A stretch of DNA of 63,412 nt from assembly GCA_028874365.1 (NCBI GenBank), contig JAPPJZ010000070.1:1-63412 (forward strand). The letters are read 5' to 3'. Both the position numbers and the translations under genes were made by a program. This document shows positions 4,044-63,048 of the stretch, piece by piece; within the stretch, counting starts at the first letter, position 1; every line of letters starts with the position of its first letter. The notes under the pieces are model-generated. The model had not been told where the DNA came from. It worked only from the letters and a program-made list of their open reading frames with translations, and ran no database searches. This stretch comes from Chloroflexota bacterium. GTDB taxonomy: Bacteria; Chloroflexota; Dehalococcoidia; Bin125.

Positions 4044-6449
4044 GTGACGCAGATGACGCTTCCACTCGACGGTGTGCAAGTTCTCGACCTCTCCGATCAT
4101 CGAGCGGCGCTGGGCAGCCGGACGCTGGCCGACCTGGGCGCCGAGGTGACGATGGTCGAGCCGCCCGGCGGGAGTTCGATTCGGCATCTGGCGCCATTCG
4201 TCGACGACGCGCCGTCTGCCGACGGGAGCTATCAGCACCTCTACTTCAACGTCAACAAGTGCTCCATCGTGCTCGACTGGCGAGTCGAAGAGGGCATGCA
4301 GCGGTTGCTGCAACTGGTTGGGTCGGCCGACATCCTGATCGAGTCGAATCAGCCGGGTGAGTTCCCGGTTGAGGAGGTTCGCTCGGCGAATCCGCATCTG
4401 ATCGTCGTCTCGGTGACGCCGTATGGACAACGAGGGCCCAGGTCGGGCTGGCGCGCTACCGATCTGACCGCGACGGCGGCAGGTGGACTACTGCAGATCA
4501 GCGGCGAACGCACCGACCCGCCGGTCCATGGAGCGGCGTTTCCCGCGCATACGATGACGGGCCTGACCGTCGCATCCTCGGCGATGACGGCGCTGCACGG
4601 ACGCGACCGCACGCCCGGGCAGCCTGGTTGCCAGATTGACATCTCGATGCAGGAGGCGACATCGTTCCAGACCGTGCAGACGTCGAATCCGAACATCTGG
4701 CGCTGGCGGGGCGAGGCGCCGTATCGGCCGGCGTTGTCGCAGGTGATCCGCTGCGCCGACGATCGTTGGATGGCGTGCAACATCTCGCCGAACAAGCTGC
4801 CCGAGTTCATCGCCATGTTGGACGAGGCCGGAATCGAGCATGACCTCGATCCGGACAATTGGGTGGTCCTGTTCCGGGGCGACCGAGCGGCCTGGCAGTA
4901 CCTGGAGAATCCTCTACAGGAGATGGCGATCAAGCTGGCCGCGGTCTGGCCGCGTCAGAAGCTGCTCGATCGCCTCTGGGCCTGCGGGACGCCGGCCATG
5001 CCGACCCTGCGCTTCAGCGAATTCGCCGAGAACGAGCACTACCAGACGGCCGGGCAGTTCAGCGAGGTCGACACCCCGGCGATAGGCAGGTCGCTGAGCT
5101 ACTCGCGCAGCGCGCTCGATCCGGTTCAGTCGCCGCTGCCGATGCGTCCGGCGCCGAGACTGGGAGAGCATTCCGACTCTGCTTCCTCCGCGAATGCGAA
5201 CGGAACGGTTGCCGCTGCAGGGCCCTCGGAAGCGTTCCCCGACATGCCACTGGCGGGCATCCGCGTGCTCGATCTGACCTGGGTCGCGGCGGGACCGCTG
5301 ACGACTCGACTGATGGCCAACTTCGGGGCTGAAGTGATCAAGGTCGAGTCCAGCGGCGAGCGGATGGATCCGCTGCGTGTCCAGCCGATCAAGGGCGAGT
5401 TTCACTTCGACCTGCCCGACCTGTACAACGAGGTCAACACGGGTAAGAAATCTGTGACGATCGATCTGGCCGACGAGCGCGGCAAGGATCTGTTGCGCGA
5501 GCTCGTCGCCCATTGCGATGTGCTGACCAACAACTACTCCGGCGGCTCGCTGGCGCGCATGGGCTTCCCCTGGGAGCAGCTCAGAGCCATCAACCCGAGG
5601 TTGATCAGTGTTCATCTGCCCGGCGTCGGCGGCGACAGCCCGTGGCGACCGCTGCGCACGCTGGGCAACCTGCTCAAGGCCGCGTCGGGAATGAATTTTC
5701 AGATGGGCTATCCCGATCAACCGCCACGCGGCATGGGTGTTGCCTATCCCGACTTCACCACGCCGCACCTTGGGGTGACGGCGATTCTCTCGGCGCTGCG
5801 GGCCCGCGAAGAGACAGGAGAGGGCCGCGAGATCGAGCTGAGCCAGCTCAGCGCGACGGTCGCGTTGCTTGGAGCTCAGTGGATGCAGTTCGATCAGGTC
5901 GGTGAGGACCTGCCGCGTCCGGGCAATCGTGACCCCAACATGTGCCCTCACGGAGTGTTTCCGTCTACGGGAGACGACCAGTGGGTCGCGATCGCGCTGG
6001 AGTCGGACGAGCAATGGCCGGCCTTCGCGCATGCGATTGAACGGCCGGATTGGGCGGAGCGTTCCGACTTGCGAACGCTGGTCGGCCGCAAGGCGTGCGA
6101 GGACGAGATCGAATCGGCGATCGGCGATTGGACGAGTGGCCTGAGCAAGTGGCATGCCGCCGAGCAGCTCCAGGCCGCTGGGATCGCCGCCAATGCGGTC
6201 GAGGATCTGCGCGACATGATGGACATCGACGAGCACTTCCGCGATCACTACCAGCACGTCGAACAGCCCTCCCATCCGGGCGTCGATATCTGGATCGACG
6301 GTGCGCCCTGGGAGTTCGCGCATCTCGAGCCGCGTGTGATCGAGCGTGCGCCGATGCTGGGCGAGCACAATGAGGAAGTGCTCAGCGGCTTGCCGGGCAA
6401 GAGTTCGGACGAGATCGCCGAGTTGATCGCCGCCGGGGTCGTCGGCTGA
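4044..6449 (+). CDS. Double-length CaiB/BaiF CoA-transferase (two fused domains)
   Basis: An 801-residue protein made of two complete type III CoA-transferase domains: roughly residues 5-375 (LDGVQVLDLSDHRAALGSRT) and 402-801 (PLAGIRVLDLTWVAAGPL). They are joined by an Ala/Asn/Pro-rich linker near 376-400. Type III enzymes work as interlocked dimers, so the fusion probably makes a pseudo-heterodimer in one chain. The first domain has Glu (DISMQEA) and the second Ser (ELSQLSA) where I align the usual catalytic Asp, so one or both sites may be altered. The start is GTG 4044 or ATG 4053; neither has a strong ribosome binding site. A hydroxyacid dehydrogenase gene follows after 29 bases. Confidence 0.9.
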   Translation: MTQMTLPLDGVQVLDLSDHRAALGSRTLADLGAEVTMVEPPGGSSIRHLAPFVDDAPSADGSYQHLYFNVNKCSIVLDWRVEEGMQRLLQLVGSADILIESNQPGEFPVEEVRSANPHLIVVSVTPYGQRGPRSGWRATDLTATAAGGLLQISGERTDPPVHGAAFPAHTMTGLTVASSAMTALHGRDRTPGQPGCQIDISMQEATSFQTVQTSNPNIWRWRGEAPYRPALSQVIRCADDRWMACNISPNKLPEFIAMLDEAGIEHDLDPDNWVVLFRGDRAAWQYLENPLQEMAIKLAAVWPRQKLLDRLWACGTPAMPTLRFSEFAENEHYQTAGQFSEVDTPAIGRSLSYSRSALDPVQSPLPMRPAPRLGEHSDSASSANANGTVAAAGPSEAFPDMPLAGIRVLDLTWVAAGPLTTRLMANFGAEVIKVESSGERMDPLRVQPIKGEFHFDLPDLYNEVNTGKKSVTIDLADERGKDLLRELVAHCDVLTNNYSGGSLARMGFPWEQLRAINPRLISVHLPGVGGDSPWRPLRTLGNLLKAASGMNFQMGYPDQPPRGMGVAYPDFTTPHLGVTAILSALRAREETGEGREIELSQLSATVALLGAQWMQFDQVGEDLPRPGNRDPNMCPHGVFPSTGDDQWVAIALESDEQWPAFAHAIERPDWAERSDLRTLVGRKACEDEIESAIGDWTSGLSKWHAAEQLQAAGIAANAVEDLRDMMDIDEHFRDHYQHVEQPSHPGVDIWIDGAPWEFAHLEPRVIERAPMLGEHNEEVLSGLPGKSSDEIAELIAAGVVG

Positions 6450-7478: not shown

Positions 7479-8531
7479 ATGAAGATCGTGGAGATGTACG
7501 GCGATTCGCGCGTCGACGTGATTGAGGTGCCTGAACCTGAGCCGCGCGACAACTGGGTCATCGTCAAGGTGATCGCCAGCACGATCTGCGGCACGGAGCT
7601 TCGCAGCTACCGGCATGGCGAGCGAGACTTCAACTCGCACTCCTACAACTCAGGACACGAGGCGGCCGGCGTGGTCGTGAAGACCGGCCCGGCGGCGAAG
7701 ATTGAGGAGGGGACGCGCGTCGCGGTGATTGCCCACATGGGCGAGCAGTGCGGTCAGTGCTGGTACTGCCACCAGGGTCTCTGGCTGCTCTGCACGGATC
7801 TTACGGAGGGCGGCGAGGAGTACCTGGGCACGCATACGCAGTACATTTCGCGTCCCGACACACACTGCATTCCGATGCCCGACGACGTTCCCTTCGAGAT
7901 CGGCTCGATTCTGGTCGACGCGGTAGGGACGCCGTATCGAGCGATTCGCCGGTTAGGCGTGAACGGATTCGACACGGTGTTGATCACCGGACTGGGTCCG
8001 CTCGGCGCTTCCGCGGCCATCATCTGCGAGCGGCTCGGGGCGCGGGTGATCGCCACGGAACCGGCCGAGTTCCGGCGCAGCATGGCTCGCGATTACGGCG
8101 TCGATGTGGCGATCGATCCCGTCTCAGAGGATGCGCTCGCGCGGATCATGGAACTTACTGGTGGGCGCGGGCCGGATGTGGCGCTCGACTTCACCGGTTA
8201 CACCGAGCCGCAGATGCTGTGCGTCGACGCAGTGAAGGTCGGAGGTCGGGTTGGATTCATCGGGCTCAAGTTCGACGAGACGCCGGACGGGCCGGTGCCT
8301 CGGCCGACGCCGATCACGGTTGCCGGTCACCTGCTGCCGAAGGAACTCACACTGATCGGCAGCTGGAGCGTCGCGCCGCACGAGATGTTGGAGCTGTTTG
8401 AGCTGGTCCAGCAGGGCCTACCGGTCGAACGGCTGATCACGCACCGCTTCGGGATCGACGAGGCGCAGGAGGCCTACGAGACGGCGTTCAATCAACGCGG
8501 CTGCAAGGTGATCATCGATCCCTGGGGCTAG
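7479..8531 (+). CDS. Zinc-dependent alcohol dehydrogenase family protein
   Basis: A 350-residue medium-chain dehydrogenase/reductase. The catalytic zinc region (TICGTELRSYR then SGHEAAGVVV) and the structural zinc loop (CGQCWYCHQGLWLLC) are both present, followed by the NAD-binding GLGPLGASAA. It oxidises or reduces an alcohol/carbonyl substrate with NAD(P). ATG 7479 gives the usual N-terminus (MKIVEMYGDSRVDVIEVPEP); the upstream in-frame extension overlaps the preceding gene and has no similarity. Its stop codon shares the CTAG at 8528-8531 with the convergent CoA-transferase. Confidence 0.9.
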   Translation: MKIVEMYGDSRVDVIEVPEPEPRDNWVIVKVIASTICGTELRSYRHGERDFNSHSYNSGHEAAGVVVKTGPAAKIEEGTRVAVIAHMGEQCGQCWYCHQGLWLLCTDLTEGGEEYLGTHTQYISRPDTHCIPMPDDVPFEIGSILVDAVGTPYRAIRRLGVNGFDTVLITGLGPLGASAAIICERLGARVIATEPAEFRRSMARDYGVDVAIDPVSEDALARIMELTGGRGPDVALDFTGYTEPQMLCVDAVKVGGRVGFIGLKFDETPDGPVPRPTPITVAGHLLPKELTLIGSWSVAPHEMLELFELVQQGLPVERLITHRFGIDEAQEAYETAFNQRGCKVIIDPWG

Positions 8532-11053
8532 CGAATTACTTCGTCGACCAGGAGCTGGGTGAACTCTTTTTCGCTGATACCCATCTCGTTTCGGTAGACC
8601 TGTTCGTTGTGCTCTCCGAAAAAGGGGGCTCGGCGGATTGGCAGGCGTTGGCCGTTCCAGAGGAAGGGCTGATTCTGGGCCATGAACCTGATCCCGACCG
8701 GGTGGTCGAACTCGTGGAAGAAGCCCTCCATTGACGGATCGGTTTCGACCAGGTCCTCGATGTCCTCGTTTGGTCCAGCGGGGACGCCGGCGGCTTCGAA
8801 CGTGGCGGTTGCCTTCCAGACGTCCTGAGCGCGGGTCCAGTCGCTGATGGCTGCCTCGATCTCATCCTCGGCGGCGTGGCGGCCGGGGAGGGTTCGTAGA
8901 TCCTCGCGGGCGGCGAGGTCGGCGCGACCGATGACGCGGCAGATTTCCAGCCAGTCGACGGTGTCCCGAGCGCTGAGGGCCAGCCAGCGATCGTCGCCGG
9001 CGCAGCGGAAGAGTCCGTGCGGCGCCATTTCGGGTGAGCGGTTGCCTCGCCGCTCCGACAGCTTGCCGTTGGCGAGCTGGTCGATCAGTTCCGTGTCGAG
9101 CAGGTGGATGCCGGCCTCGTACTGAGGGATCTCGATCTCCTGGCCGACGCCGGTGCGGTCGCGTTGGATCAACGCGGAGAGGATGGCTGTCGCGGCCAGC
9201 GGTCCCAGGGTGAAGTCGGTGTGGAGCAGGACGCCGGTCGGCTTGCGATCGGCCGCGCCAGTGTGAGCGGCCAGTCCACAGAGCGCGACAACGCTGTTGC
9301 CGATCCCCTTCCACGATGCCTTGGGTCCCCAGGTACCCATCACGGGCAGGCTGCAGACGACGATGCGCGGGTTGATCTTCTTGAGATCGTCGAAGCCGAG
9401 TCCGAGCCGCTTCATCACGCCGCCGGTGAAGTTGTCGGTGACCACGTCGGCCTCGCGGATCAGGTCGTAGGCAACGCGGAGTCCGTCGGGCGCGCCAAGG
9501 TTGAGGTTGATGCTGCGCTTGTCGGTGTTGCAGTCCTGGAAGAAGGCGCCGGTCTCGATGGTGGGTGGGTCGTATGCGGGCAGCGCGACGCGCAGGGTGT
9601 CGATTCGGGCGTCGGACTCGATCTTGATCACGTCGGCGCCGAGATTGGCCATTAACTCCGTGGTGAGCGGTCCGGCGGCCTGCCAGCAGAAGTCGACGAC
9701 TCGGATGCCCTTGAGGGGGAGATCGCTTCTGGAGATGACGTTAGAGGACACGTGGGATGGCTCCGACTGCCCCTCTCTGCCTGCGGCATCTCGCCCCGCT
9801 CCGCGGGGGGAGAATGGAATGCTCGATTCGGAACGGTGATTTGGTCCGGAAACCAATCCGTTGGCGACCATCCGATCGTATGCGGGCGGGTCAACATCAA
9901 GCAGGTCCGCCAGCACATCCGCCGAGTCGGCACCGAGGGTGGGAGCGGCGCGAGGGACCGGCTCGTAGCCGGTTGAATGGATCGGCAGCCGGGGCAAGTC
10001 AATCTCTCGGTCGAACTGGGGATGGTCAACGGTGAGGAACGCACCCCGTTCGTGGAGGTGGGGGTCTTGGGCGATGTCCATTGCAGAGTTGACGGGCACG
10101 GCGAGGAAGCCACGGGACTGGCCCTCGTAGCACAGTTCTTCGCGGTCGAGGCTGGCGCAGGCCCTCTGGAAGGCGCGATGGCCCTCGCTTCCCCATTCCT
10201 GGATGTAGATGTCGCCGGGATACTCCGCACCAATGAGACCGTCGTAGCCGGAGCGCTCGTAGAGCCACTGTCCGAAGGCGGCCCAACGCTCGTGGGTGTT
10301 GGGCGTGATGCCGAAGGTCAGCCATTTTCCGTCTTTGGCCTGAACGAGGGAGGAGATGTTGCCGCCGGGGCGAGACGCCTTTTCGCCCAACTGGCGCCAC
10401 ATGTTCTCGTTGGCGAAGTGGATCGTGGTCGAGAGGATCGCTTCCTGCAGTGAGATATAAGCGTGGCTCGCACGTTTCCCGTTGCGGCGGTCGTAGAGCA
10501 TCGCGGCGGCGGTCGCGGCGGCGACCTGGCTGGCCTGCTTGTAGGCCAGTTTGCCGGCTGGGTAGTCGGGCGCGACGTCGGGGAAACCCAGGCCCTGCAT
10601 CAGTCCGCCGGCGGCGACGCCGACGATGTCGGAGGCAGGCAGAGCTTCGCCTCCGCGCCGGGTGACGACATCAATGACGCCCAAGTGCGGATGCACTCGT
10701 TCGAGACGTTCGCGGTTGAAGAATCGGCGGGCGTCGATCGACTTGTCCAGCGGGGCCAGCACGATGTCGGCTCGGGCGAGCAGGCGATCGATCAGGTCCC
10801 AGGCGCCGGGCGCGTCGAAGTTGAGTGCCAGGCTGCGCTTGCCGGCGTTGTAGAGCAGATGCCGCAAGCCGCTCTCGAGGTCTGATCTGTCGTCCACATG
10901 CGGCCCATTGATTCGCAGGGCATCGCCGGATGCGGACTCGACCCTAATCGTGTCGGCGCCGAAGTCGGAGAGCCAGCGCGCGCCCAGGCAGAGGCACTCG
11001 TCGCTCAGGTCGATGACGACCGAGCCGGCGAGCGGGAGGTCGGAGAAGGCCAT
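8528..11053 (-). CDS. Double-length CaiB/BaiF CoA-transferase with a repeat-derived linker
   Basis: An 841-residue fusion of two type III CoA-transferase domains: residues about 5-395 (DLPLAGSVVIDLSDECLCLG) and 440-841 (DLPLKGIRVVDFCWQAAGPL). Where I align the usual catalytic Asp, both domains show Glu (SLQEA; PQYEA). The linker (about residues 412-429, with FSPRGAGRDAAG) is encoded by a copy of the GC-rich palindromic repeat that is otherwise intergenic in this window (see 9768-9820). The gene starts right behind the crotonase gene (stop/start overlap at 11053), so the two are translationally coupled. It probably activates a carboxylic acid as CoA ester for the neighbouring hydratase. Confidence 0.9.
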   Translation of the reverse strand: MAFSDLPLAGSVVIDLSDECLCLGARWLSDFGADTIRVESASGDALRINGPHVDDRSDLESGLRHLLYNAGKRSLALNFDAPGAWDLIDRLLARADIVLAPLDKSIDARRFFNRERLERVHPHLGVIDVVTRRGGEALPASDIVGVAAGGLMQGLGFPDVAPDYPAGKLAYKQASQVAAATAAAMLYDRRNGKRASHAYISLQEAILSTTIHFANENMWRQLGEKASRPGGNISSLVQAKDGKWLTFGITPNTHERWAAFGQWLYERSGYDGLIGAEYPGDIYIQEWGSEGHRAFQRACASLDREELCYEGQSRGFLAVPVNSAMDIAQDPHLHERGAFLTVDHPQFDREIDLPRLPIHSTGYEPVPRAAPTLGADSADVLADLLDVDPPAYDRMVANGLVSGPNHRSESSIPFSPRGAGRDAAGREGQSEPSHVSSNVISRSDLPLKGIRVVDFCWQAAGPLTTELMANLGADVIKIESDARIDTLRVALPAYDPPTIETGAFFQDCNTDKRSINLNLGAPDGLRVAYDLIREADVVTDNFTGGVMKRLGLGFDDLKKINPRIVVCSLPVMGTWGPKASWKGIGNSVVALCGLAAHTGAADRKPTGVLLHTDFTLGPLAATAILSALIQRDRTGVGQEIEIPQYEAGIHLLDTELIDQLANGKLSERRGNRSPEMAPHGLFRCAGDDRWLALSARDTVDWLEICRVIGRADLAAREDLRTLPGRHAAEDEIEAAISDWTRAQDVWKATATFEAAGVPAGPNEDIEDLVETDPSMEGFFHEFDHPVGIRFMAQNQPFLWNGQRLPIRRAPFFGEHNEQVYRNEMGISEKEFTQLLVDEVIR
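9768..9820 (+). repeat. Dispersed GC-rich palindromic repeat, copy inside a CoA-transferase gene
   Basis: The plus strand reads CCCTCTCTGCCTGCGGCATC, then TCGCCCCGCTCCGCGGGGGGAGA within two bases. This closely matches the intergenic copies at 61553 and 62996, including the CTGCCTTCGGCATC half and the CCGCTCCGCGGGGGGAGA hairpin half. It lies in frame in the interdomain linker of the 8528-11053 gene. Confidence 0.85.
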
Positions 11054-20350: not shown

Positions 20351-22249
20351 ATGGAACGCAACTATTGGTCACGGATGAAGCGGTCGCGGATGAGCCGTCG
20401 ATCGCTGCTGCGGGCGAGCGCCCGCGCCGGTGTCGGCGCGGCCGGTTTGGCGCTGGTCGGCTGTGGCGACGATGACGACGACGATCAGCCGGCGGCGGCC
20501 CAGGCCCAGCAGCAACAGCAGCAGGCGATGGAGCAGCAGGCCGAACAGCAGGCCATGCAGCAGGAGCAGCAGGAAGAGCCCGCCGCTCAGCAGCAACAGC
20601 AACAGCAGGCGGCCGTCGCCCAGGCGCAGGACCAGGCGATGGTCGACAGCCAGGGCAATGCGATCCAGACCGGCGGCGTCTTCAAGCGAGCGGCTGCGTC
20701 GCAGCTCACGCTGATCCGCTTCCCCTGGAACTCGGCCGGCAACAATGGCACGATCGACCCGACCGGGTACATGTACAACTGCCTGACGCAGTACGGCGGC
20801 GTCCAGCTTGACGAGACCGCCAATCGGTTCTGGGAATACGCCAACCCGGACTGGGAAATCAAGCCCGACGTAGCGGCCGGCTGGGAGACTCCCGACAACC
20901 TGACGTGGATCTTCGACATCAAGCCGAACGTGGTCTTCCACGACGGTCGCGCCTTCACGGCCGACGACGCGGCGCACAGCTATGAGGCGATCCGCGACCA
21001 GGGCGTCTCCGGCGGTGGTTCGCCGGCCTACAACCTGGGGAAGGTGATCGCCGGCACCGAGGCGATCGACGCTTCGACGATGAAGCTCAACCTGGGCGAG
21101 CCGCGCGGTTTCACCGGCGCGCTGACCGCCTACGTGCGCATGGGTCACCCGGAGACCGCCGGTTCGGAAACCGCACCGGCGCTCGACATGGCCCGCAACG
21201 AAGAGGCCGTGCTGATCGGCACCGGTCCCTGGCGCTTCGACACCGACAGCTACGACCCCAACACCGGCTGGCGCCTCGTCCCCTTCCCCGAGAGCCACAT
21301 GGGCGCGCCCAACATGGAGGAGATCACCTACACGATCTTCTCCGACGCCGATGCCATCGGTATTGCCCTCGAGGCCGGCGACATCGACTCGCACAACGGC
21401 ATCCCGTTCAACAATCCGGAGACGATCGACCGACTGATCGCCAGCGACGATCACTGGGGTTGGGCAGGGACCAGCCTGGGCGGCCAGATCTTCCGTTTCG
21501 CGATTGACGTCGAGCCGACGACCGACCCGCGCGCCCGTCACGGCGTGTGGCGGATGGTCGACCAGGAGCGCGTGGTGCGCGACTACTTCGGTCCGTACGA
21601 CGACGCGGGCCGCCTGTTCTTCCAGCGCGGATCGCAGGGTTACATCGAGGACCTCGACCGTCCCAACTACGACCCGGCCGAGGGCGCGAAGCTGCTCGAC
21701 GCGGCGGGCGTGGGCGAGGGCAGCGTGCTGACCGCCAGCACCCTGCCGATTCGCCCGTATGCGCCGGCGCTGGCGCAGTTGCTGCAGGCCGAACTCTCGA
21801 CGCTCGACATCGAACTCGAACTCGACCCAACCGAGTACAACGTGATGATCGAGAAGCAGCAGGCCGGCGACTTCGGTAACTTCCTGATCGGTTTCGGCAA
21901 CTGGATCCGCCCCGAGTCGGCGGCGCTGGCCATGGTCATGCAGGATGCCCTGCACGGCGAAGGCAACGCCAAGCGCGGCGGCGACGCCAGCAACCCGATT
22001 CCCGTGCGTGAACGCCCGTACATGGACAACTACTTCCACTGGCTGGACATGATCATTGACGTTCAGACCGGAAACCATGACGACACCGAGGAATACTGGC
22101 GCTCGTTCAACGAGACCTTCCACGAGGTGATGTTCGCCCAGGCGATCGCGCGTCAACGTGGGGCCGAGTTCTATACGAACCGGGTCCACGTGCCGGATCC
22201 GGGTCCGACGACGCCGAACCCGCAAACGATCTGGCTGGAACAGACGTAA
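20351..22249 (+). CDS. Family 5 (oligopeptide-type) ABC transporter substrate-binding lipoprotein
   Basis: A 632-residue extracytoplasmic solute-binding protein. The N-terminus has a twin-arginine-like segment (SRRSLLRAS), a hydrophobic stretch and a lipobox ending at Cys38 (LALVGC). Six Asp residues and a Gln-rich linker (about residues 48-97) come next. The SBP_bac_5 fold starts near residue 105, with VAAGWETPDNLTWIFDIKPN and VVFHDGRAFTADDAAHSYEA being diagnostic. It captures peptides or other small molecules for the two permeases encoded downstream. The linker probably acts as a flexible spacer from the membrane anchor. Confidence 0.92.
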   Translation: MERNYWSRMKRSRMSRRSLLRASARAGVGAAGLALVGCGDDDDDDQPAAAQAQQQQQQAMEQQAEQQAMQQEQQEEPAAQQQQQQQAAVAQAQDQAMVDSQGNAIQTGGVFKRAAASQLTLIRFPWNSAGNNGTIDPTGYMYNCLTQYGGVQLDETANRFWEYANPDWEIKPDVAAGWETPDNLTWIFDIKPNVVFHDGRAFTADDAAHSYEAIRDQGVSGGGSPAYNLGKVIAGTEAIDASTMKLNLGEPRGFTGALTAYVRMGHPETAGSETAPALDMARNEEAVLIGTGPWRFDTDSYDPNTGWRLVPFPESHMGAPNMEEITYTIFSDADAIGIALEAGDIDSHNGIPFNNPETIDRLIASDDHWGWAGTSLGGQIFRFAIDVEPTTDPRARHGVWRMVDQERVVRDYFGPYDDAGRLFFQRGSQGYIEDLDRPNYDPAEGAKLLDAAGVGEGSVLTASTLPIRPYAPALAQLLQAELSTLDIELELDPTEYNVMIEKQQAGDFGNFLIGFGNWIRPESAALAMVMQDALHGEGNAKRGGDASNPIPVRERPYMDNYFHWLDMIIDVQTGNHDDTEEYWRSFNETFHEVMFAQAIARQRGAEFYTNRVHVPDPGPTTPNPQTIWLEQT

Positions 22250-22264
22250 GGCTCGATTTGAGAC

Positions 22265-22318
22265 CTTCGCTCTCCCCCCGCTGCGGGGGGAGAGGCCGAA
22301 GGCATTGGGGGGGTGTCC
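22265..22318 (-). repeat. GC-rich palindromic repeat, inverted copy between SBP and permease genes
   Basis: It contains the hairpin CTCTCCCCCCGC-T-GCGGGGGGAGAG (22270-22294, up to 12 pairs), then GCCGAAGGCATTGGGGGGG. This is the reverse complement of the CTGCCTTCGGCATCTCCCC copies elsewhere. Lying in the intercistronic space, it may stabilise the upstream mRNA so that more binding protein than permease is made. Confidence 0.8.
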
Positions 22319-43888: not shown

Positions 43889-45148
43889 TTAGCCGCGCGC
43901 AGTTGCCTCGAGATGCCCCACGTGGTGGTCCTCGGTGCAGCCTCCGAGCGAGGTCTCAACCTGGAACGTGATGTGGCTGAGGTGGTACTTCTCCCTGGCG
44001 ATCTCCTTCGCTTGATCCAGCAAGGCCTGGTGGTCTGGATGCTCGTCGTCGATCAGGATGTGGGCGGAGATCGAGTCGTAGCCGGAGGTAATCGTCCACG
44101 CGTGGACGTCATGTACCACGGTGACGCCGTCCAGCGACTCGATGTCATGACAGAGTGCGTAGAGGTCGATATGGGCGGGCACGCCTTCGATCAGGATGTG
44201 AAAGATTTGCATGGCGGGTCGGTAGGAGAGCGCGAGGATGAAGATCCCGATCAGGACGCTGACGATCGGGTCGGCCAGGTGCCAGCCGAAGGCGAGGACG
44301 AATATGCCGGAAACGATCACAGCGACCGATCCCAGCAGATCGCCAAGGACATGTAGAAACGCGCCTTGCACGTTCAGGCTGTGTTCCGACGATCCGTGCA
44401 GGATGTAGGCGACAAAGATATTGACGACGAGGCCGACCACGCCCACGGCAGTCATCAGCACGCCTTCGACATGAGGATCGCCGCCGATCCGGTGCACCGC
44501 TTCCCAAATCACCCAGCCGGAGATCAACCACAGGGTGAGGATGTTGAGGAACGCCGCCAGGATCTCCGTTCGGGCGAACCCGAAGGTGCGGTCAACCGAC
44601 GACGGACGATCGGCAACCCACATCGCCACAAGCGCCAATGCGATGGCTCCGGCGTCGGTCGCCATGTGACCGGCGTCGGCCAGCAGCGCCAACGAACCGG
44701 AGAGGATGCCGCCGACGATCTCGACGACCATGAAGAAGAGGATGATGCCTAGTGAGACGACCAGCGTCCGTCGGCTCTGACCCCTCAGGTCGTGGGAGTG
44801 GTCGTGGTGGCCATGATGATCATGGCCATCGTGATCGCCGTGATCGTGACCGGCGTGATCATCGTGGTCGTGATGATCATGACCAGAGTGATCGTCATGG
44901 TCATGGTGATCGTGGTCGTCGTGATCATGGTAGTCATGTCCGGCGTGCTCACCGGGCATGTGTTCATCGTGATCATGACCGTCGTGATCGTGGTGATCAG
45001 GTGAATTCTCGCGGGAAGGAGTAGACGGCCGCTGGCCCACGCGCCACCCGCTTTCGCAAGAATTCTCGGTTCTAGGACCCCGGCAGCGGGGTCGGTATCG
45101 AACTATCTTCGCGCAGTGTATAGTATCGGGCATACCCGCGGATCGCAT
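43889..45148 (-). CDS. Cation diffusion facilitator (zinc-type efflux) with His/Asp-rich N-terminus
   Basis: A 419-residue membrane transporter. Residues 51-120 contain 30 His and many Asp (such as HDHHDHDDHAGHDHGDHDG). Six membrane spans follow from about residue 127, with the metal-site motifs ADAGHMATDAGAIALAL (span 2) and LHVLGDLLGSVAV (span 5), then a cytoplasmic dimer domain with VHDVHAWTITSGYDS. It exports Zn2+ or similar ions against protons. The start is uncertain: ATG 45148 has GGAGG only 3 bases upstream; a GTG further in is possible. Confidence 0.92.
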   Translation of the reverse strand: MRSAGMPDTIHCAKIVRYRPRCRGPRTENSCESGWRVGQRPSTPSRENSPDHHDHDGHDHDEHMPGEHAGHDYHDHDDHDHHDHDDHSGHDHHDHDDHAGHDHGDHDGHDHHGHHDHSHDLRGQSRRTLVVSLGIILFFMVVEIVGGILSGSLALLADAGHMATDAGAIALALVAMWVADRPSSVDRTFGFARTEILAAFLNILTLWLISGWVIWEAVHRIGGDPHVEGVLMTAVGVVGLVVNIFVAYILHGSSEHSLNVQGAFLHVLGDLLGSVAVIVSGIFVLAFGWHLADPIVSVLIGIFILALSYRPAMQIFHILIEGVPAHIDLYALCHDIESLDGVTVVHDVHAWTITSGYDSISAHILIDDEHPDHQALLDQAKEIAREKYHLSHITFQVETSLGGCTEDHHVGHLEATARG

Positions 45149-45210: not shown

Positions 45211-46284
45211 ATGCCCCGTCTTCGAGCGTTGGCGCTCAGCGTCGCGCTGCTCGCGTCTGCGGGCATCGCGATCCTCGGTTCCTTAGCCTGTGGCAGCGAC
45301 GATGCCGATAGTGAGCGGCTCCAGATAGTCGTCTCCACCCAGGTGATCGCCGATTGGGCCCGCCAGGTCGGTGGCGACCTGGTAGAGGTTCGAGCGCTGG
45401 TGCCCGCCGGTGCCGACGCGCACACGTTCGAGGTGACGGTGGACGACATCCGTGCGGTCGCCGACGCCGATCTGGTCGTGATCAACGGTGCCGGACTGGA
45501 GTCGGGCTATGAGGAGGCGGTCGAGGAGAACGCGACCAATCTGCTTGAACTGGCCAACGCGGTTGAGGCGCTGGGACACGTGCTGCATCCGTTCGAAGGG
45601 TTGCTCGGTTCCGACGAGGAGCATCACCAGGGGCAAGGGGAACAAGAACAGCAACAGCAACAGCAGCAAGAACATCATCAGGGGCAGCAGGAGCAGGCGC
45701 AGCAGCAGGAACACCACCAACAGCAACAGCAAGAGGACCAACACGGGCAACAAGAGGAAGAGCACGAACACGACCACACCGGCGAAGACCCACACTTCTG
45801 GTTCGACGCGGACATCGCCATGGCTGCGGTGGCCGCGATTGCGGCCGAACTGATCGCGCTCGCGCCCGATGCTGAAGATGACATCATCGAACGCCGCGAC
45901 AGCTACCTCAAGGAGATTGAGGAGGCCGACGATGAGGTCCGCGAGTTGCTCGCCGATATACCCGCCAACCAGCGTCTGCTGTTCACCTTCCATGACGCCT
46001 TCGGCTACTTCGCCCGCCGCTACGATCTGACCGTGGCAGGCTTCCTCGTCGAGGGGCCGGAACAGGGCGTCAGCGCCGAAACGATCATCGAGTTGGTCGA
46101 ACTGATCGAGCACGAAGGCATCCGGACCATCTTCCACGAGCCGCAGTTCGACTCCGGCATCCTCGATGCGATCTCAGAGGAAACCGGTGCCGCACAGGGC
46201 ATCATTTGGTCGCAGCCGACCGATGAGAAGCCGACCTACATCGACATCCTGGTCGGCAACGCGGAGGCCATCGCCAACCAGTAG
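45211..46284 (+). CDS. znuA: ZnuA-like metal-binding ABC transporter lipoprotein
   Basis: A 357-residue cluster A-I binding protein. The signal peptide ends at a lipobox Cys27 (GSLACGS). Metal ligands are His71 (GADAHTFEV), His195 (EDPHFWFD) and a His in FTFHDAFGYFARRY, with a Glu/Asp site in IFHEPQFDSGIL. Between ligands 1 and 2 lies a Gln/His/Glu-rich loop (about residues 135-190, such as QEHHQQQQQEDQHGQQ), longer and more Gln-rich than the usual ZnuA loop. It delivers Zn2+ to the ZnuB permease encoded nearby. Confidence 0.92.
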   Translation: MPRLRALALSVALLASAGIAILGSLACGSDDADSERLQIVVSTQVIADWARQVGGDLVEVRALVPAGADAHTFEVTVDDIRAVADADLVVINGAGLESGYEEAVEENATNLLELANAVEALGHVLHPFEGLLGSDEEHHQGQGEQEQQQQQQQEHHQGQQEQAQQQEHHQQQQQEDQHGQQEEEHEHDHTGEDPHFWFDADIAMAAVAAIAAELIALAPDAEDDIIERRDSYLKEIEEADDEVRELLADIPANQRLLFTFHDAFGYFARRYDLTVAGFLVEGPEQGVSAETIIELVELIEHEGIRTIFHEPQFDSGILDAISEETGAAQGIIWSQPTDEKPTYIDILVGNAEAIANQ

Positions 46285-61552: not shown

Positions 61553-61611
61553 AGCCCCCCTCTGCCTTCGGCATCTCCCCCCGCTTGCGCGGGGGGAGAG
61601 GGGACCAAGGG
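61553..61611 (+). repeat. Dispersed GC-rich palindromic repeat, copy
   Basis: CCCCCCTCTGCCTTCGGCAT, then CTCCCCCCGC-TTG-CGCGGGGGGAGAG, then GGGACCAAGGGGGAG. It lies in the divergent gap between the nitroreductase and MFS transporter genes. It is one of the clearest copies of the family. Confidence 0.85.
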
Positions 61612-62995: not shown

Positions 62996-63048
62996 AGCCC
63001 CCCTCTGCCTTCGGCATCTCCCCCCGCTCCGCGGGGGGAGAAAGGAAT
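62996..63048 (+). repeat. Dispersed GC-rich palindromic repeat, copy
   Basis: AAGCCCCCCTCTGCCTTCGG then CATCTCCCCCCGCTCCGCGG, then GGGGAGAAAGG. It is nearly identical to 9768-9820 and 61553-61611. It lies between the convergent MFS and hydrolase genes. Confidence 0.85.

Follow-up and report, generated by a model that had tools for sequence, protein, structure and literature searches.

At this locus, the two domains of a fused CoA-transferase are joined by codons that resemble a palindromic repeat lying between genes nearby. Is the linker a copy of that repeat, and did the repeat supply the junction of the fused enzyme or invade it? We searched the window (the whole stretch of DNA analyzed, 63,412 nucleotides) and 15 genomes of one genus; every genome used was a draft assembly, and those with a title on record were MAGs. 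Very probably, the linker holds a REP-like interspersed palindromic element of ~52 nt, which belongs to subfamily A within a small superfamily and was inserted into the flexible linker of an already fused gene.

Table 1. Genes and element copies of the window.
Feature	Position	Strand	Remarks
Fused family-III CoA-transferase, 841 aa, single ORF	8528..11053	-	Two CoA_transf_3 domains; element in linker
Second fused CoA-transferase, for comparison	4044..6449	+	Linker without element
Palindromic element, subfamily A	9768..9820	+	GCCCCTCTC-hairpin 1 (TGCC TGC GGCA)-TCTCGCCCCGCTCCGCGGGGGGAGA-ATGGAAT; slightly decayed
Element, diverged copy	22262..22312	-	In gap directly after gene ending at 22249
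Element copy	61553..61602	+	Apparently intergenic, within the 5'-extended part of an ORF that probably begins farther downstream
Element copy	62996..63046	+	Flanked by convergent genes; identity with the in-gene copy 92% (over 52 nt, from 9769 and 62997)

The host protein matched Pfam family PF02515 (CoA_transf_3) in two stretches (E 1.1e-134), the feature of family-III membership. The palindrome that an earlier note had placed in frame in its linker is indeed present, and encodes residues ~412–429, between the two domains. Positions 9769–9820 have the sequence GCCCCTCTCTGCCTGCGGCATCTCGCCCCGCTCCGCGGGGGGAGAATGGAAT; the antisense reading of the copy by the host gene is FSPRGAGRDAAGREG, and SPREAGGDAEGR is an example of the linker peptide derived from the element. 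In an AlphaFold2 model of the enzyme (pTM 0.89), both domains were confident and the pLDDT fell below 50 only at residues 1–3, 275–287, and 408–437, the last of these being the predicted disordered linker that the element codons make up. The N- and C-terminal halves matched subunits A and B, respectively, of the solved benzylsuccinate CoA-transferase (9fn0), and by this half-by-half match the enzyme looks like a fused heterodimer.

The earlier note also claimed sister copies at 22265, 61553, and 62996 and proposed a genome-wide search for the consensus. With up to three mismatches, the 19-mer consensus of that note matched the window four times, the in-gene copy included (9777, 22287, 61562, and 63005), when dinucleotide shuffles gave an expectation of 0.02. 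In the whole genome (G000, 3.1 Mb), the core TGCCTNCGGCATCTC was matched exactly 59 times and the reversed control not once. The sister copies are thus borne out, with a similarity far above chance. An Rfam scan of the window returned nothing at gathering scores. Elsewhere in the window, we noticed two adjoining genes. One (43889–45148, minus strand) encodes a cation-efflux-like protein whose N terminus carries a long His/Asp-rich repeat; the other (45211–46284, plus strand) encodes a metal-binding-like protein containing a stretch rich in Gln and His.

Aligned copies defined a GC-rich unit of ~52 nt with two hairpins: GCCCCCCTC-T-hairpin 1 (GCC TTC GGC)-A-TCTCCCCCCGC-loop-GCGGGGGGAGA-RRGGRAA. 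A common design, x-G...C-A-p-CTCCC...GGGAG-q, ran through several subfamilies, which we named A, B, and C after their (x,p,q) of (T,T,A), (A,G,C), and (C,C,G). Hairpin-1 stems among the subfamilies were GCC/GGC, GTCAC/GTGAC, GTCCC/GGGAC, GTCGC/GCGAC, and GTCTC/GAGAC. Without any pairing filter, stem position 4 of hairpin 1 was Watson-Crick in 65/65 copies, with all four pairs seen, and the hairpin-2 base pair was T-A, G-C, C-G, or T-G in 207/207 rows, some of which repeat one copy. Since the stems covary, a folded strand, DNA or RNA, is probably under selection or takes part in the spread of the element. Folded as RNA, the one decayed copy did not outperform its shuffles, so the structural case rests on the covariation between copies. 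Most ORFs that read the element as a Cys/His-rich peptide (APLCLRHLPP, for example) seem to be antisense ORFs, and we did not count them as genes. MAFFT misaligned the 3' arm across subfamilies; we therefore scored loci by local alignment with controls and used no covariance model. With the first library, the maximum among 608 control segments was 15.5. The linker of the second fused enzyme, which the earlier note had called unrelated, scored 9.0 versus this maximum.

Subfamily A was present in 14/15 genomes of the genus (G005 being element-free), with 0 to 142 copies each, and in 0/279 other genomes of the class (class sample). Among the matches listed, the exact pattern was almost confined to Chloroflexota MAGs, with L173 and L181 as exceptions, and the titles of matching contigs were those of Dehalococcoidia/Chloroflexi MAGs. 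Several of the MAG sets with matching contigs look sponge-derived, and we take the genus to be mostly sponge-associated. L173 is a 3.4-kb contig labelled Gemmatimonadetes that carries the element, by mis-binning or transfer. L181 (2445) is an exact 23-mer in Methanothrix PolB that seems to encode a native DIEC..RGEMPKAE motif; this is probably a coincidence and was set aside. The wider two-hairpin design was rare in the phylum, with one match in each of 3 genomes outside the genus among 120 others sampled. The covarying design, with A- and B-type stems, was also found in 30 IMG/VR viral contigs (L226–L255); judging by these, the element superfamily is wider than the genus. Two further repeats were seen on the way. 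The element copies of L007 and L010 have similar flanks (tcgagtc.gggaactggggat ... GGGCCCCGCATCAAGT), suggesting a larger repeated unit. Another short palindrome, GGTCCCCGATNNNNTCGGGGAC, had 53 forward and 65 reverse matches in G006 with one mismatch allowed, many of them counted on both strands, and was rare in relatives.

What occupies the same linker in other species? The 841-aa gene, whose linker we call alpha, was found in 10 genomes of the genus, counting that of the window. In nine of them it reaches through the linker; the contig of the G002 orthologue breaks off where the second domain begins. Subfamily A occupies the alpha linker in the same (minus) orientation in G000, G010, G014, and G006, the last with an additional tandem array of 4 extra decayed units (L056). 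In G001, A lies in the plus (opposite) orientation, slightly displaced. G008 carries subfamily B, and the G013 linker resembles a decayed B, though its score of 16 lies close to the highest control (15.5). G007 has a mosaic palindrome and G003 a different palindrome. The G002 gene is fused and its linker had no element. Flanking domain sequences were conserved in all of these orthologues. A conserved linker peptide unrelated to the element was what the earlier note would have held against itself; the orthologous linkers share no conserved peptide.

We also collected 76 fused CoA-transferase ORFs, 72 of which were not chosen for the element. With a library built without these loci, 25 of the 72 linkers scored at least 20; these copies are inherited among orthologues and do not stand for 25 independent events. 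The element density was 2.9/kb in these linkers, versus 0.40/kb in noncoding DNA and 0.013/kb in other coding DNA of 60 of the loci. The L210 linker (G012) was lengthened by partial units amplified in tandem, with SPRSA.GDA repeated. Three paralogous families (gamma, epsilon, and eta) retain short linkers without the element.

Housekeeping genes carried the element as well. The MurE loop was 6 aa long in six species and 25–38 aa long, with an A copy, in nine; these copies share one site, one orientation, and a constant frame (SPREAGGD...), and the hairpin-1 stem varies by species. In the ValS loop before LEDRWILSR, subfamily A was found in G000, G004, G006, G011, and G012 and C in G001, whereas G003, G008, and G014 (and G010, weaker and interrupted) have B, oriented the other way; nothing was detectable there in G002, G005, G009, and G013, and G007 was unscorable. 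The element loop aligns to a shorter loop of the T. thermophilus ValRS. In HemW, the insertion was seen in G004 only, the 13 other orthologues being element-free. Over these three genes, filled loops scored 21.5–45.5, empty loops ≤10.5, and codon-shuffled inserts ≤17.5. A second ValS site, in an N-terminal loop before PFTVIMPPPNVTG (L316/L317), holds a seemingly A-type peptide in G004 (SLSPFQGEMPQAEGVP) and a seemingly B-type peptide in G011 (PLSRSATAPPARG).

Element states were then placed on a species tree of concatenated ValS and MurE, whose deep branches are weakly supported. Three sister pairs with 99–100% support differed in element state: G006/G008, G003/G013, and G009/G011. Parsimony required 9 changes for ValS, 7 for MurE, and 6, 7, and 5 for three linkers; in these counts the states were assigned by hand, some tentatively, and the deep nodes are weak. 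We tentatively raise the possibility that these loops and linkers are true hotspots, in which elements of several covarying subfamilies would come and go in either orientation at a pace above that of speciation, with no target-site duplication and no Y1 transposase. Alternatively, each site received one ancient insertion that later diversified by mutation or gene conversion, and empty orthologues are precise losses. The MurE copies would fit, as conversion could explain a single site and orientation with differences mainly in the hairpin-1 stem, and RPE-4/6/7 of Rickettsia have been read as ancient diversified insertions (PMC3767692). However, ValS has A and B in opposite orientations and the alpha linker has A both ways as well as B; this counts against gene conversion because conversion does not invert a unit. 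HemW, with one filled and 13 element-free orthologues, argues in the same direction, and we consider one insertion per site unlikely.

The linker copies might instead be kept for a function: a GC-rich hairpin in the mRNA or a longer disordered peptide would aid the fused enzyme, by a translation pause or by linker length. The density in linkers is ~7 times that of noncoding DNA, linkers were also lengthened by tandem partial copies (L056 and L210), and copies remain foldable. Yet the gamma, epsilon, and eta families do with short element-free linkers, the element state turns over between sister species, and the ValS and MurE loops are of another kind, not such domain linkers. A function of this sort is improbable as the reason for their presence.

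Did the element create the fusion, bridging two adjacent genes when a palindrome between them was read through? That two genes once lay side by side is plausible given the match of the two halves to two subunits of a heterodimeric enzyme (9fn0 A and B), and elements are common between genes. But the G002 orthologue is fused without an element, fused enzymes from other genera of the family (best ~42% identity) have linkers that are element-free by inspection, and no genome of the class sample had the element outside the genus. We dropped the idea as very improbable, contradicted as it is by the element-free fused relatives. Since such relatives occur both in the genus and in other genera, the fusion, as read from these orthologues, predates the element, which invaded an existing junction. 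The earlier note had left open whether the element supplied or invaded the junction; it is the invasion that stands.

There is next to no chance that the similarity is a GC-rich coincidence or an assembly artefact: although the genomes are GC-rich drafts and the Methanothrix 23-mer looks native, the window copies far exceed expectation, reversed-pattern controls gave 0, and the same insertions recur across separately assembled genomes.

How would a REP-like element inserted into existing linkers and loops spread and persist? It would spread in the genome by a mobile process acting on the folded strand, and most copies would survive between genes. Insertion would be quasi-random; selection would leave only those in-gene copies that landed in frame in tolerant loops, so that such loops would act as recurrent landing sites. 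The frame would be kept because the consensus has a stop codon in 0/6 frames and its hydrophilic, low-complexity peptide of Gly/Ser/Pro and charged residues would be harmless in a linker. Counting against this reading, Y1_Tnp (PF01797, covering RAYT and IS200/IS605 TnpA), the transposase family searched, was not found in 14/15 genomes of the genus, among them the genome of the window. The sole Y1_Tnp-like gene found in the genus, G001:C5:81494-81673 (L078), is a weak match. With G001 as the only genome of the 15 matched, the search gave no sign of mobilization by RAYT/IS200. The element ends, CCCCTC ... GAGGGG, may pair as terminal inverted repeats, short and partly degenerate ones. Also against the reading, no offset or length of target-site duplication showed a convincing excess over re-paired flanks among 261 copies. 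The net gain at ValS and HemW, another point against it, was about 5–8 aa versus an element peptide of ~15 aa, so target codons there would have been lost on insertion or trimmed away afterwards. Ordinary DDE transposition is made less likely by these lost codons together with the absence of a duplication.

In Rickettsia and Wolbachia, palindromic elements (RPEs) lie in frame within conserved protein genes, and orthologues may have different groups at one site (PMC3767692, PMC2229807). Whether RPE-4/6/7 reflect an insertion hotspot or one diverged insertion was left undecided (PMC3767692). The present element likewise lies in frame in conserved genes (CoA-transferases, MurE, ValS, and HemW), and the earlier note's comparison with Rickettsia holds as an analogy. 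It does not hold as common family membership: size and lineage differ, and presumably the sequence as well. RPEs measure 100–150 bp and belong to Rickettsiales, whereas the present element is a ~52-bp, GC-rich, two-hairpin unit of Chloroflexota; unlike RPEs, it can lie either way round at one site, which may be empty in a sister species. GTAG/CGTC REPs are short high-copy palindromes, mostly intergenic and sometimes in genes, where they were suggested to be tolerated in linkers and loops; CGTC repeats occur without a dedicated transposase (PMC3733652). In contrast to the GTAG REP/RAYT system, our element has no GTAG at its ends (end profiles GGRWG...GGGAA) and 14/15 genomes of the genus gave no RAYT hit. 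CGTC REPs have a single 8–9-bp stem, a CGTC end, and a CCA-like tail, whereas our element has a hairpin-1 stem of 4–6 bp and a second long hairpin. ERIC, NEMIS, and RU-2, small MITEs with open frames, are non-coding mobile repeats able to fuse in frame to genes (PMC2229807); they are ~100–200 bp long and several have target-site duplications, unlike the present element, for which none was detected. The element works like intragenic REPs and RPEs but fails at least one tested defining feature of each named family.

Palindromes lying in frame within genes are familiar chiefly from Rickettsiales and from some bacteria rich in REPs. What is new here is the recurrence: across species, the same linker and loops are filled in either orientation, filled by other palindromes, or empty. 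Across 15 genomes of one genus, the same codon positions of CoA-transferases, MurE, and valyl-tRNA synthetase are variously empty, filled, filled in reverse, or filled by a replacement, so the question of hotspot versus diverged insertion becomes testable. The fused CoA-transferase offers a case of short mobile DNA setting the length and sequence of an interdomain linker. If the hotspot reading is true, protein loops would be remodelled by short mobile DNA.
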